From positions 1-64,000 of the forward strand of contig JAUILK010000007.1 in the NCBI GenBank assembly GCA_030433275.1: a stretch of DNA of 64,000 nt, read 5' to 3'. Positions within the stretch are counted from its first letter, which is position 1, and every line of letters starts with the position of its first letter. Under the pieces are notes generated by a model that was given only the letters and a program-made list of their open reading frames with translations, searched no databases and was not told the DNA's origin. Both the position numbers and the translations under genes were made by a program. Below, one piece after another: positions 23,317-28,995 of the stretch. This stretch comes from Gammaproteobacteria bacterium. Its GTDB lineage: Bacteria > Pseudomonadota > Gammaproteobacteria > Nitrococcales > Nitrococcaceae.

Positions 23317-23886
23317 TCACTCCTTGGCGCGGGAGATGTACGCTCCGCTACGGGTATCGACCCGTACCAGCTCACCCTCCTCAATGAACAGCGGCACCTG
23401 CACCACCGCGCCGGTTTCCAGGGTTGCAGGCTTGCCCCCACCCCCACTGGTATCGCCGCGCAGGCCGGGGTCGGTCTCGACCACGGCAAGATTGACGTGC
23501 GCGGGCGGCTCGACCGAGAGCGGCTCATTATTCCAGAGCGTGACCTTACACAAATCCTGCTCTTTGAGCCATTTGGCCCCGTCGCCAATCACAGTTTGGC
23601 CGGCCGCGTACTGTTCGAAACTATCCGGCTTCATGAAATGCCAGAATTCGCCATCCGTGTAGAGATATTGCATCTCCGTCTCGACCACGTCCGCGGCTTC
23701 AACGCTGTCACCGGATTTGAACGTCCGCTCGACCACTCGGCCAGAGCGCAGATTGCGTACTTTGACACGGTTAAAGGCCTGACCCTTGCCAGGCTTTACG
23801 AACTCGTTCTCAACAATGGTATAAGGATCACCGTCGAGTAGAATTTTGAGTCCCGCCTTGAACTGGCTGGTGGTATAACTGGCCAT
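23317..23886 (-). CDS. efp: Elongation factor P
   Basis: Ribosome factor that relieves stalling at polyproline stretches. Three beta-barrel domains in 189 residues. The tip of domain I reads VKPGKGQAF, placing a lysine exactly at position 34, the site modified by EpmA/EpmB; rhamnosylated EF-Ps carry Arg there. The AGGGG Shine-Dalgarno is good. It is first in an efp-epmA transcript, divergent from epmB. Confidence 0.97.
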
Positions 23887-23991
23887 GAAACCCCTGCTTG
23901 GCGCTGAAATTCAGATACTGTTCTGGGCGTTCGATGGACCTGCACTTGCTCTGCACGTCCCGAAGCGCGAATACTAACGGAAAACCACGGC

Positions 23992-24000
23992 TGTTAGAAT
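23992..24000 (+). promoter_or_regulatory. Extended -10 element directly before epmB
   Basis: TGTTAGAAT (TGn plus TAGAAT) ends 7 nt before the epmB ATG, and the intervening AATTGCT has no Shine-Dalgarno. It would give a leaderless or nearly leaderless epmB transcript. No good -35 box was seen. Same layout as purF and psd. Confidence 0.38.
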
Positions 24001-24007
24001 AATTGCT

Positions 24008-25027
24008 ATGAGTGGGTCCTCACTCGCGGTACCGCCCGCCATCACCCGCCTTTCCTGGCAGCAGGAAATGGCGCGGGCCGTTCGTGATCCGGCGGAACTG
24101 GTGCGTTTGCTGGAGCTGCCCTCCTCTCTATTGGAGCCTGCCCGACGGGCCTGTCGACAGTTTCCGCTGCGCGTGCCGCATAGCTATGTCGCGCGCATGG
24201 AGCGCGGCAACCCCAAAGACCCTCTGTTGCGTCAGGTGCTTCCCCTCACAGTGGAACTGACTCCCGCACCCGATTTTGTTGCCGACCCGGTCGGCGATCT
24301 GAGTGCCTCCAAAGGCGCGGGCGTGTTGCACAAATATCATGGTCGAGTGTTGTTGATTACCACCGGTGCCTGCGCCATCAACTGCCGCTACTGTTTCCGC
24401 CGGCACTTCCCTTATGACCAAGCAAACGCTTCGACCGAGCGATGGCGCCCCGCTCTGCGCTATATCGCCCAGCATCCCGAAGTCGAAGAAGTCATCTTAA
24501 GCGGTGGGGATCCCTTGACTCTAACGGACCGCCGCTTGGCTCAACTCGTTACCCAGTTGGCCGATATTCCCCATATCCGGCGTCTGCGAATACACACTCG
24601 CCTACCCGTAGTGCTGCCCGCACGGATCACGGACGAACTGATCAAGTGGCTTGCGGGCAGCCGGTTGCAACCGGTCATGGTGGTACATGCCAACCATGCC
24701 AACGAATTGGACGCAGCGGTGGCGAGCGCGGTAAAGCGCTTGCGCGATGCCGGAGTCACCGTGCTCAACCAAACGGTGTTGCTGCGGGGAGTCAATGACG
24801 AAGCAAGGGCGCTGACGATGCTCCATCAGCGGTTGTTCGATAACGGAATATTACCCTATTACCTTCACGTGCTCGATCGAGTTGCGGGCGCCCGTCATTT
24901 TGCGATTACGCAAAATCGCGCCCGTGAGCTGCACCGGCAGATGGCTGCATGGCTGCCGGGATACCTAGTACCCAGGCTAGTACAAGAGATCGAAGGCGCG
25001 CCGGGCAAGCGTTGGCTGCCACCCTAA
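24008..25027 (+). CDS. epmB: EF-P beta-lysylation protein, lysine 2,3-aminomutase
   Basis: Radical SAM enzyme (YjeK) turning (S)-alpha-lysine into (R)-beta-lysine for EF-P. The cluster motif is C122-x3-C126-x2-C129 in ACAINCRYCFRRHFPY. The SGGDPL motif and the PLP lysine region near the C-terminus are present. Length 339 residues, the EpmB rather than the larger catabolic aminomutase size. It faces efp across 121 nt. No ribosome-binding site is evident before the ATG. Confidence 0.94.
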   Translation: MSGSSLAVPPAITRLSWQQEMARAVRDPAELVRLLELPSSLLEPARRACRQFPLRVPHSYVARMERGNPKDPLLRQVLPLTVELTPAPDFVADPVGDLSASKGAGVLHKYHGRVLLITTGACAINCRYCFRRHFPYDQANASTERWRPALRYIAQHPEVEEVILSGGDPLTLTDRRLAQLVTQLADIPHIRRLRIHTRLPVVLPARITDELIKWLAGSRLQPVMVVHANHANELDAAVASAVKRLRDAGVTVLNQTVLLRGVNDEARALTMLHQRLFDNGILPYYLHVLDRVAGARHFAITQNRARELHRQMAAWLPGYLVPRLVQEIEGAPGKRWLPP

Positions 25028-25127: not shown

Positions 25128-26882
25128 ATGAAACACTCGACGGCCAACCACCTTCCGATACCACAGCAAGAATCGGCGAGCCCAGGCAGCTTCGATTATC
25201 GGCCCCAGTCGGTGAAAATTTGGCTGCAGAATCTTCCCGTTGCTAATCTAGGCATTACCAGCCGCGCCGTATACGAGTCACTACACACTTGCAATCGCCA
25301 GAAGCTGCACCCGAGGCTGCGGCTGCGCTACCTAGAACAGCTCCGTGAGATCGTTTGCTATATCGGCAATGGGCTGCGCAGACAATATCTGGGTCGCGCT
25401 CTTCCCTTGCGCCCCAAGCCCAAGCGCATCGTCACACTTGCACTGCTGCTGCTGCAAGAAATGGCGTTGGGCTATGAGATCTTAGTCGAGACGCCTCCCC
25501 CTCAATTTCGCCCCGCGTTTGGCCACCGCCATCGCCTAGGCTGCGCGCTTGATCGAGCTATCCGCTACCGCTCCCGGGTTTTGCTCGAGAGCTGGACCGT
25601 CTATCAAACACCCCCTGCGGATACTTGGCGCCGACTGCACACCCTCTATGCCATCGCCGAGGAAACCGGGCTCAGCGAACAGCGAGTAACCGACTCACAA
25701 CTTGCCAGCCCGCACCGGCGCAGCACGCCCGGACGCGCCTATCGGCAGGTGGTGCTACTTGCCGCCGCAGGCCCACAGCGGATGCATTACAGTGAAATTT
25801 TAGATGCGTATCGGCTGCTCGGACAATGGGCCGCGGCCGCACGGCTCGTAACACCGGCAGACCCGGCGGCTAGCGAAGCGCTGTTCTGCGTCCCGCATGC
25901 TTTGGACGCACCGCCGCAACCCTACCCGACAAGTTCGGCTGGACCACAGGATAGGCTTGTGCTTACTGATGAGCTACTACGGCTCATCGAGCGGGAGTTC
26001 TCCACCACAGCCAAGCGGACGTTTTGGCGGCGTAAGCCGCTGGCGGATATCCATCCGGAGCTCTCCCATCGCCTCTCGCTAGCCCTAGGCGCGGTGGCAA
26101 ATCGGCGGCGCCAATCGCGCATGAAAATCACGGCGCGGCTCCAGGCGGTCCTTGGATTGACGGCAATCCATCACGCGCTGTCCCGTGAGATCGGCCAGGA
26201 TATCGAAACGATCGACCCAACGCATGACCGATTTCAATGCCGCAACACGCGCTCGGCTAATCACGGAACACAGGACGTTTGGGATCTGATCTATCCGACC
26301 GATCTGCTGGACGCAACACCGCAAGAGCCGCAGCACCACATACATGACCAACCCCACCAGCTCCGCCACGAAGAGATCCTCGACTGGAGCCTGATCAACG
26401 TCAGCGCCGGTGGTTATTGCCTCGTCTCGGGACCGCAGCAAAACTCGAGCGCTCGTGTGGGCGAACTCATCGCCATGCGGGAGATGACAGATCGCAAACC
26501 GCCTTGGCAACTGGGCGCGATCCGCTGGATGCGCGTACTACCGGAGCAAACGCTTCAGGTTGGCGTGCAAATCCTGGCGTCGAACCCAAGCCCCATCCAG
26601 TTGCGGACCGAGCACACGGATTACCGATTTGGCCCCTTGGAATGGGGGCTCTTGCTACCGGCCGTCACGGCGAACGATCAACCGGCGACGTTGATCGCAC
26701 CGGGACGCCACTATGTAACGCAGCGGCGAGCGCGGATGCGGTACGGACAGCGCGAGACCGTAGTGGAACTCAGCCGTGAGCTCGATACCACCGCACATTA
26801 TGTGCAGCTCGAATTCCGCTGCAGCGATCTCTTGGAAGCGGAGCAGGCGGCACCGAACGAATTGTGCCCACAGCATGAATGA
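25128..26882 (+). CDS. Uncharacterised 584-residue protein with PilZ-like C-terminal region
   Basis: Function unknown. No signal peptide; a mostly helical, arginine-rich first 380 residues with no motif I recognise. Around 418-483, WSLINVSAGGYCL followed by LGAIRWMR and VGVQIL resembles a PilZ beta-barrel (N-x-S-x-x-G then G-x-x-x-W). The RxxxR c-di-GMP switch expected before NVSAGG is missing, as in the pilus protein PilZ. A good AAAGGAA ribosome site precedes the ATG. fimX follows after 31 nt, so they are probably co-transcribed. I recall a hypothetical gene of similar size (PA4958) between psd and fimX in P. aeruginosa. A role with FimX in pilus control is inference. Confidence 0.75.
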   Translation: MKHSTANHLPIPQQESASPGSFDYRPQSVKIWLQNLPVANLGITSRAVYESLHTCNRQKLHPRLRLRYLEQLREIVCYIGNGLRRQYLGRALPLRPKPKRIVTLALLLLQEMALGYEILVETPPPQFRPAFGHRHRLGCALDRAIRYRSRVLLESWTVYQTPPADTWRRLHTLYAIAEETGLSEQRVTDSQLASPHRRSTPGRAYRQVVLLAAAGPQRMHYSEILDAYRLLGQWAAAARLVTPADPAASEALFCVPHALDAPPQPYPTSSAGPQDRLVLTDELLRLIEREFSTTAKRTFWRRKPLADIHPELSHRLSLALGAVANRRRQSRMKITARLQAVLGLTAIHHALSREIGQDIETIDPTHDRFQCRNTRSANHGTQDVWDLIYPTDLLDATPQEPQHHIHDQPHQLRHEEILDWSLINVSAGGYCLVSGPQQNSSARVGELIAMREMTDRKPPWQLGAIRWMRVLPEQTLQVGVQILASNPSPIQLRTEHTDYRFGPLEWGLLLPAVTANDQPATLIAPGRHYVTQRRARMRYGQRETVVELSRELDTTAHYVQLEFRCSDLLEAEQAAPNELCPQHE

Positions 26883-26913
26883 CAATGGGTGGCCAGAGAG
26901 TTCAGGATAAGGG

Positions 26914-28995
26914 ATGACAACCGAAAAAAACCTGCTGCGGCTGGTAATTGCCGAAGAATCACGTAATGACGCCGAACACCTGATCAATGTCCTGCGCAAT
27001 GCCGGTTTCGCCGTGCGCGCCACCTCGATAGAGGATGAAGAGACGCTGCAGACAGCGCTATCCGAACGCGACCATGATCTGTTTATCTGCTCGTCGCAGT
27101 TGGAACAACTGCCCCTGGAGAGCGCAGCCCAAATCGCATTGCAATCCGACCGAGATGCCCCGTTGCTCGTCCTCAACGAGCGCCCTGATCCGGAACTGCG
27201 CCTTCAGGTGATGCGCATTGGTGCGGCAGATTTGGTCGATAAAGGCGATGCCGAGCACTTCCGCTTAGTGATCGAGCGAGAGTTCCAAAACCTCCGCGAG
27301 CGCCGCCGGCTACGCCAGCTCGAAACCGCACTGCGCGAGACTGAGCGACGTTGCCATGCTCTGCTGGATAACTCCCGGGATGCCATCGCCTACGTCCACG
27401 AGGGAATGCATATTTACGCCAATGCAGCCTACCTAGAGCGGTTCGATATGGCTCGTGGCGAAGCCATCGAGGGCATGCCCATCCTCGATCTGATCGCCAC
27501 TGAGGATCAGATCCACTTCAAAGATTTCTTGCGGCGCTACAGCCAGGGGAAACACAACGAAGACCACCTGGAGATAAACATCCGTGGCCCCGAAGGAGAA
27601 ACCCAAGCAGTGATCATGCATTTCTCCGGCGCCAACATCGACGGCGAACCGTGCACCCAGATCCTCATGCGCAACAAAGACACCAGACTGGAGCAGGAAT
27701 TGGCCAGCCTCAGCCGCCGCGACATGCTAACCGGCTTGTTCAACCGAAAATATTTCCTCGAGCAACTCGATCGGAGCCTCGCCGAGCGGACCATCGCAGG
27801 CGATGGAAAGAGCTTGGGACTGCTCTACCTCCAGACCGATAATTTAGAGGCTACCCATACGAGCTTAGGGGTCACGTCGGTGGAACTCGTCCTCAACGAC
27901 ATCGCCAGGCTCATCGAAGGGCAGACCGGCGAAGACGACGTAGCCGCGCACTATGCGGATACCGTATTTACCATTCTGCTGCCGAACCGTACCGTTCACG
28001 ACACGATTGGGTTGGCCGAGGCGCTACGCCAAAGCATCGGGGAACATGTCTCGGAGATCGGCAACCGCACGATAACAAAATCTTGCAGCATCGGCATTGC
28101 AATGCTAAGTGAAGGCATGGCCACCGCCCCCCAGGCCATCAACCTGGCCGCCGAGGCGAGCGAAGCAGCGCGCCTTGAAGGAGGCAACCGCGTCCACCTT
28201 CATGCCACCGCCGAGCACAGTGGGAACGAGAGCGGCAGTGACTGGAAGAGCCGGATCGAACACGCACTCGCCGATGAAGCTTTCTATCTCGTATACCAGC
28301 CAATGGTCTCACTATCCGGGGATCAAACTGAGCGCTATGAAGCGCGCATGCGATTGAGCGACGATAACGGTCAATTCTTAGCGCCGCGCGATTTCATGCC
28401 GTTTGCGGATCAATGCGGCCTAACTCCGGCCATCGATCGTTGGCTGACGCGAACCGTGCTCACTGCGATCGCCCAGCGCCACGCAGCTGGGCATGAGCCC
28501 AACGTGTTCATCAAAATCACTGGCTGCACCCTCGGCGACCCGGAATTCTTGCCGTTTCTTACCTCTGAGTTGGAGCGCCTGGACGTGGGGGCCACGAGCC
28601 TCGTATTCGAACTCAGCGAATCAGTGGCAATGACCCAACTCAAGCAGGCAAAGGCCTTCTATCAAGGGGCCAAGGATCTTGGCTGCGGCTTTGCCTTGGA
28701 TCAGTTCGGCCGCGAGCTCAACTCCTTTCAGCTGCTCCAACACATCCCAGCCGATTATCTGAAACTCGACCGCAGTCTATGCGTCGATCTCGCGAATAGT
28801 GTGGAAACCCAACGCAAGCTTCGACAAATCGTTGATACCGCCCACACCATGGACAAGCAAATCATCGCCGGCTTTCTCGAGGAGGCCACCGCACTCGCGA
28901 CGCTCTGGCAATATAAGGTGGACTTGGTCCAAGGCCATTTTCTGCATGAGCCAGCCCCGGAGATGAACTACGATTTCAGCGGCATGGTGATCTAA
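26914..28995 (+). CDS. fimX: FimX-like c-di-GMP receptor (REC-like, PAS, degenerate GGDEF and EAL)
   Basis: Domain order and length (693 residues; about 690 in P. aeruginosa FimX as I recall) match FimX, which promotes type IV pilus assembly. REC-like domain 7-125 lacks a clear phosphoacceptor; PAS 140-260; GGDEF 262-430 with YADTV (347-351) in place of GGDEF; EAL 445-685 with EAR (476-478) in place of EAL and DQFGR (596-600) in place of the DDFG metal site. It is therefore predicted to be inactive as cyclase and phosphodiesterase, but able to bind c-di-GMP through the EAL domain, as FimX does. An AAGGG ribosome site precedes the ATG. Confidence 0.88.
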   Translation: MTTEKNLLRLVIAEESRNDAEHLINVLRNAGFAVRATSIEDEETLQTALSERDHDLFICSSQLEQLPLESAAQIALQSDRDAPLLVLNERPDPELRLQVMRIGAADLVDKGDAEHFRLVIEREFQNLRERRRLRQLETALRETERRCHALLDNSRDAIAYVHEGMHIYANAAYLERFDMARGEAIEGMPILDLIATEDQIHFKDFLRRYSQGKHNEDHLEINIRGPEGETQAVIMHFSGANIDGEPCTQILMRNKDTRLEQELASLSRRDMLTGLFNRKYFLEQLDRSLAERTIAGDGKSLGLLYLQTDNLEATHTSLGVTSVELVLNDIARLIEGQTGEDDVAAHYADTVFTILLPNRTVHDTIGLAEALRQSIGEHVSEIGNRTITKSCSIGIAMLSEGMATAPQAINLAAEASEAARLEGGNRVHLHATAEHSGNESGSDWKSRIEHALADEAFYLVYQPMVSLSGDQTERYEARMRLSDDNGQFLAPRDFMPFADQCGLTPAIDRWLTRTVLTAIAQRHAAGHEPNVFIKITGCTLGDPEFLPFLTSELERLDVGATSLVFELSESVAMTQLKQAKAFYQGAKDLGCGFALDQFGRELNSFQLLQHIPADYLKLDRSLCVDLANSVETQRKLRQIVDTAHTMDKQIIAGFLEEATALATLWQYKVDLVQGHFLHEPAPEMNYDFSGMVI

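Follow-up and report, generated by a model that had tools for sequence, protein, structure and literature searches.

A probable Nitrococcus fimW gene upstream of fimX, encoding a putatively split PilZ domain

Introduction

What is the function of a long gene, without any match to a named protein model, that lies immediately upstream of fimX? The window analysed here is a stretch of 64,000 nucleotides from a gammaproteobacterial genome (Nitrococcaceae; assembly GCA_030433275.1, contig JAUILK010000007.1). It contains an open frame of 584 codons followed, after 31 nt, by a FimX-like frame of 693 codons. The earlier note on this DNA had described both frames and their spacing, which were recovered in full; it had also given no named family for the helical N-terminus of the first product and suggested that this protein may be a non-binding adaptor for FimX.

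Gene neighbourhood and the FimX partner

The gene order in the window is elongation factor P (reverse strand), epmB, the 584-aa gene, fimX and topoisomerase IV subunit A (reverse strand), and the three genes of the forward strand are the following:

24008-25027, forward strand: epmB, conserved upstream neighbour, outside the pathway (TIGR03821, 491.6 bits)
25128-26882, forward strand: fimW homologue (assigned by homology and position), 584 aa
26914-28995, forward strand: fimX, 693 aa, with degenerate GGDEF and EAL motifs

The 584-aa gene is present as a single copy in the genome, and a promoter and terminator scan gave results at about chance level. The presence of a same-strand epmB-like ORF 5' of the fimW-like gene is very conserved, being found at 71 related loci, and in the window elongation factor P is divergent from it (23317-25027); to our knowledge, no functional connection links epmB and the fimW-like gene.

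The 693-aa product matches the Pfam EAL (1e-58), GGDEF (1e-20) and PAS models and, weakly, REC (0.0085), while its top PDB match is P. aeruginosa FimX (4j40, 6e-76). The GGDEF signature reads ADTVF and the EAL signature reads EAR; the protein has the REC-PAS-GGDEF-EAL architecture, with a weak REC, and degenerate catalytic motifs. Judging from these sequence features it is FimX, degenerate as FimX elsewhere. No relatives of fimX were found in the viral contigs searched.

Searched as a single sequence, the native 584-aa protein gave no match in Pfam, NCBIfam or PDB, and a PDB profile search with its family retrieved only Fur, at chance level. Relatives were identified in 23 of 54 genomes of its order in a search of related genomes, and in 174 of 370 gammaproteobacterial genomes with a profile search; in a phylum-wide draw, the family was present in just 24 of 299 genomes, 21 of which belong to the same class. 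The family alignment comprises 178 different full-length members. Tandem copies occur in several genomes (L091, L190, L199); the pair at L091 adjoins an ORF of 335 aa, comparable in size to epmB, and this locus had no called fimX-like ORF. Weak relatives of about 500 aa were also found in three genomes of the same phylum outside the class (L263-L265), with a match mostly in the PilZ half.

A predicted PilZ domain interrupted by an insert

The layout of the 584-aa protein is as follows:

25128-26027, forward strand: N-terminal 300 residues (1-300), probably helical and unmatched in Pfam, NCBIfam and PDB (helices in the low-confidence model only)
26106-26597, forward strand: predicted split PilZ domain, residues 327-490
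26106-26120, forward strand: RxxxR, R327-R331, predicted c-di-GMP switch of the PilZ domain
26178-26369, forward strand: insert in the PilZ domain, residues 351-414, with a D-V-W385 motif
26397-26414, forward strand: NxSxxG, N424-G429
26598-26879, forward strand: conserved C-terminal tail, residues 491-584, probably beta-rich (L508, P511, P525 and L548 conserved; no family match)

The PilZ-like N-x-S-x-x-G and the downstream G and W residues, which the earlier note had placed at 418-483, are indeed present and conserved: N424-x-S426-x-x-G429 (D/N in 174/178, S in 154/178 and G in 178/178 relatives) is followed by G445 (177/178), W467 (164/178) and G479 (178/178). The same note had stated that RxxxR is absent, as it is in the pilus protein PilZ. 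This statement proved wrong: the window protein contains R327-R-Q-S-R331, with R331 kept in all 178 relatives and R327 in 169. The motif had been missed because a long insert puts it 92 residues before N424, outside the region considered. The distance between RxxxR and D/N has medians of 102-110 in the family groups (range 39-138), as compared with 21-49, and mostly 21-25, in 24 PF07238 proteins of the same order; RxxxR is thus set apart from the rest of the domain by an insert (approximately 351-414), in which the W385 of the D-V-W motif is kept in 135/178 relatives.

The family profile was aligned one to one (hhalign) against the 24 PilZ proteins from the order, so that the E-values are not database E-values. 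The probability was 62.6% for the native 300-584 region and 81.8% (score 31.2) for residues 415-490 alone; joining residues 322-350 to 415-490 gave a probability of 89.9 and a score of 37.4, with RxxxR aligned on RxxxR, and the probabilities with the RxxxR segment joined ranged from 89.9 to 93.0%. The values were 0.1 for the N-terminal 290 residues, a region with no similarity to PilZ, and 1.6 for the tail after residue 488.

These alignments bear on a different reading, according to which residues 327-331 would have no relation to the PilZ domain, serving for instance as a basic patch that binds membranes or proteins, and 415-490 would be a truncated PilZ with another function. The length of the insert is in line with it, and so are the native Pfam matches: no relative exceeded the curated cut-off of PF07238 (22.5 bits), the matches (13.8-18.2 bits) covering the C-terminal part only, and the window protein had none. 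The structural models, which can also be counted on its side, were of low confidence, with pLDDT of 35 and 45 in the two AlphaFold models; a PDB fold search with the latter gave matches at chance level, among which 4xrn, a PilZ domain with bound c-di-GMP, ranked sixth (E 2.0), and these matches were given no weight. However, in a sliding control, where 51 segments of 29 residues (one start entered twice) were each joined to 415-490, the top seven rows started at 310-326 and all contained RxxxR, with scores of 36.9-40.9, against 35.2 for the best segment devoid of it and a median of 32.0. Moreover, when the insert 351-414 was taken out, for comparison only, 8 of 10 members aligned to PF07238 from profile position 1-3, which corresponds to RxxxR onwards; 3 of 9 relatives then passed the cut-off (24.3, 24.5 and 25.5 bits), and the window protein reached 18.4 bits. 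An RxxxR unconnected with the domain is therefore unlikely.

The comparisons argue strongly for a PilZ domain in the 584-aa protein, predicted from motifs and profile alignments rather than from a formal Pfam match. The insert would leave the PilZ fold intact, and the splitting of the domain probably explains why no model matches in the Pfam and NCBIfam releases that were searched.

Linkage to fimX and type IV pili

FimX was counted at a strict limit (E <= 1e-90), and weaker FimX-like neighbours exist at L094, L104 and L105. The family is present in 91 of 122 FimX genomes (Fisher odds ratio 5.8, p 9e-14, with related genomes treated as independent). In at least 56 of these 122 genomes the family gene lies on the same strand as fimX, which follows within 1.5 kb downstream; the genomes with such a pair fall in at least 32 families, and at least 31 of the same-strand pairs, all from gammaproteobacterial genomes, have a gap of less than 300 nt. 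The linkage is underestimated, owing to the strict FimX limit and to counts made from the matches listed. The pairing described in the earlier note is supported by this conservation. At one locus from the same family as the window (L071, genome G031), fimX comes straight after an epmB-like ORF, the fimW homologue being lost.

Some genomes depart from the pairing: 83 of 174 family-bearing genomes have no FimX at 1e-90, and 31 FimX genomes do not contain the family. As to pili, pilB above the TIGR02538 cut-off is found in 156 of the 174 family-bearing genomes versus 108 of 196 others, in agreement with the type IV pilus setting already suggested. PilB is encoded in the genome of the window; the same genome also codes, at L035, for a protein of 119 aa that matches the PilZ domain, does not contain RxxxR and looks like the pilus protein PilZ.

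Relationship to FimW

To link the gene with Pseudomonas, close relatives of FimX were sought with the PDB chain of P. aeruginosa FimX as the query. A FimX 67-71% identical to that of P. aeruginosa is encoded in seven genomes, all from one family, which on account of this identity is taken to be the Pseudomonadaceae. In all seven, the relative of the 584-aa gene is the gene located 66-73 nt upstream of fimX; for the one at L256, 68 nt upstream, blastp gave an E-value of 9.7e-38 and 25% identity over 602 columns with the window protein. Both motifs are kept in the Pseudomonadaceae relative, for example as RTFQR and NHSPGGY. An eighth Pseudomonadaceae genome (G529) contains a fimW relative and had no FimX match.

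FimW of P. aeruginosa, which we take to be PA4958, has Laventie et al. 2019 reportedly as its primary paper. The operon is listed as fimWfimX in P. aeruginosa (PMC7314104), and the protein is described as c-di-GMP-binding, polar and "encoded with" FimX (PMC11656802), and is counted among the PilZ-domain effectors (PMC12564702); the family that the earlier note had left nameless therefore has a published homologue. Upon c-di-GMP binding FimW dimerises and moves to the poles, where pilus assembly is stimulated (PMC10212136). In one study, plate twitching of fimW mutants was comparable to the wild type (PMC12288467). Contact of FimW with FimX or PilB is so far without evidence (PMC11656802).

On the basis of homology and of its position at fimX, the 584-aa gene was assigned as fimW; the assignment goes through the Pseudomonadaceae relative at the fimW position, P. 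aeruginosa FimW itself being known by description. It is highly probable that the gene is the Nitrococcus fimW and that it encodes a cytoplasmic c-di-GMP effector, predicted to consist of a helical N-terminal region and a PilZ domain split by some 65 inserted residues. Several points were counted against this identification: the identity of only 25% to the Pseudomonas protein, the lack of a PilZ match for the native window sequence and of any native relative above the Pfam cut-off, the low confidence of both structural models together with the uninformative fold search, the genomes with FimX or the family but not both, and the normal plate twitching of the fimW mutants.

A second clade, including 44 of the 178 sequences (L022, L030-L033, L188, L212 and others), never adjoins fimX in the loci seen and keeps RxxxR in 44/44 members; it looks like an uncharacterised paralogue of FimW, as far as sequences indicate. 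A second, weak relative of 508 aa, with RRHER at residue 332, is found in the Pseudomonadaceae at L266, L267 and L268, and no same-strand fimX-like gene lies downstream in the stretch fetched.

Proposed function

The ORF, its homology, the linkage to fimX and both PilZ motifs are observed for the window gene. By analogy with P. aeruginosa, the split PilZ domain of FimW would bind c-di-GMP; FimW would then go to the pole and promote the PilB-driven extension of the pilus, in parallel to or together with FimX. The 584-aa protein would thus most likely be a c-di-GMP-binding activator of type IV pilus extension that is recruited to the pole. Ligand binding, dimerisation, polar recruitment and pilus stimulation are drawn from the P. 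aeruginosa FimW papers; that the Nitrococcus protein does likewise, as well as any role of the insert and any contact with FimX or PilB, we infer.

A purely structural, non-binding PilZ-like adaptor between FimX and PilB, which had been deduced from a supposed lack of RxxxR, would also account for the conserved pairing with fimX, and it has a precedent in Xanthomonas, where a non-binding PilZ bridges FimX and PilB (PMC8389850); in addition, the strict [DN]xSxxG is not kept in 10 of 81 fimX-adjacent members. Yet RxxxR occurs in the window protein and in 80 of these 81 members, its homologue is reported to bind c-di-GMP (PMC11656802), and a distinct small protein, PilZ-like and devoid of RxxxR, is encoded at L035. 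As the motif is present and conserved, the adaptor was rejected, and we consider it very unlikely.

With FimW as the preferred identity, the gene resembles that of P. aeruginosa in being directly upstream of fimX, as in the operon (PMC7314104), with a homologous Pseudomonadaceae gene at the same position, and its product would likewise act on type IV pili as a c-di-GMP effector of the PilZ type (PMC12564702). It differs in its identity of about 25% to the Pseudomonadaceae relative and in its host, a nitrite oxidiser. A PilZ-like fold is expected for it, as for the pilus PilZ (about 120 aa), which acts with FimX and PilB; unlike PilZ, a small protein with no c-di-GMP binding (PMC11656802), it has 584 residues and RxxxR. 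With the canonical PilZ receptors (PF07238: MapZ, YcgR and others) it shares RxxxR, [DN]xSxxG and the downstream G/W/G, in the same order, whereas it departs from them in the wide separation of the motifs and in the additional N-terminal 300 residues and C-terminal tail.

What may be new is limited to the split PilZ domain and the unlinked paralogue clade. There is about an even chance that FimW proteins are gammaproteobacterial split PilZ receptors, in which a spacer of 40-140 residues, itself bearing a conserved aromatic motif, sets RxxxR apart from the remaining barrel and may link the binding of c-di-GMP to docking at the pole or the pilus motor, accompanied by a second, fimX-independent and uncharacterised clade with the same RxxxR. 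The proposal of a new non-binding adaptor is replaced by a known c-di-GMP effector, and the FimW-FimX pairing is widespread in Gammaproteobacteria, beyond Pseudomonas. Without a matching Pfam or NCBIfam model, members of the family can go unnamed in genome annotation; the conservation of the pairing makes an interaction of FimW with FimX or with PilB worth looking for.
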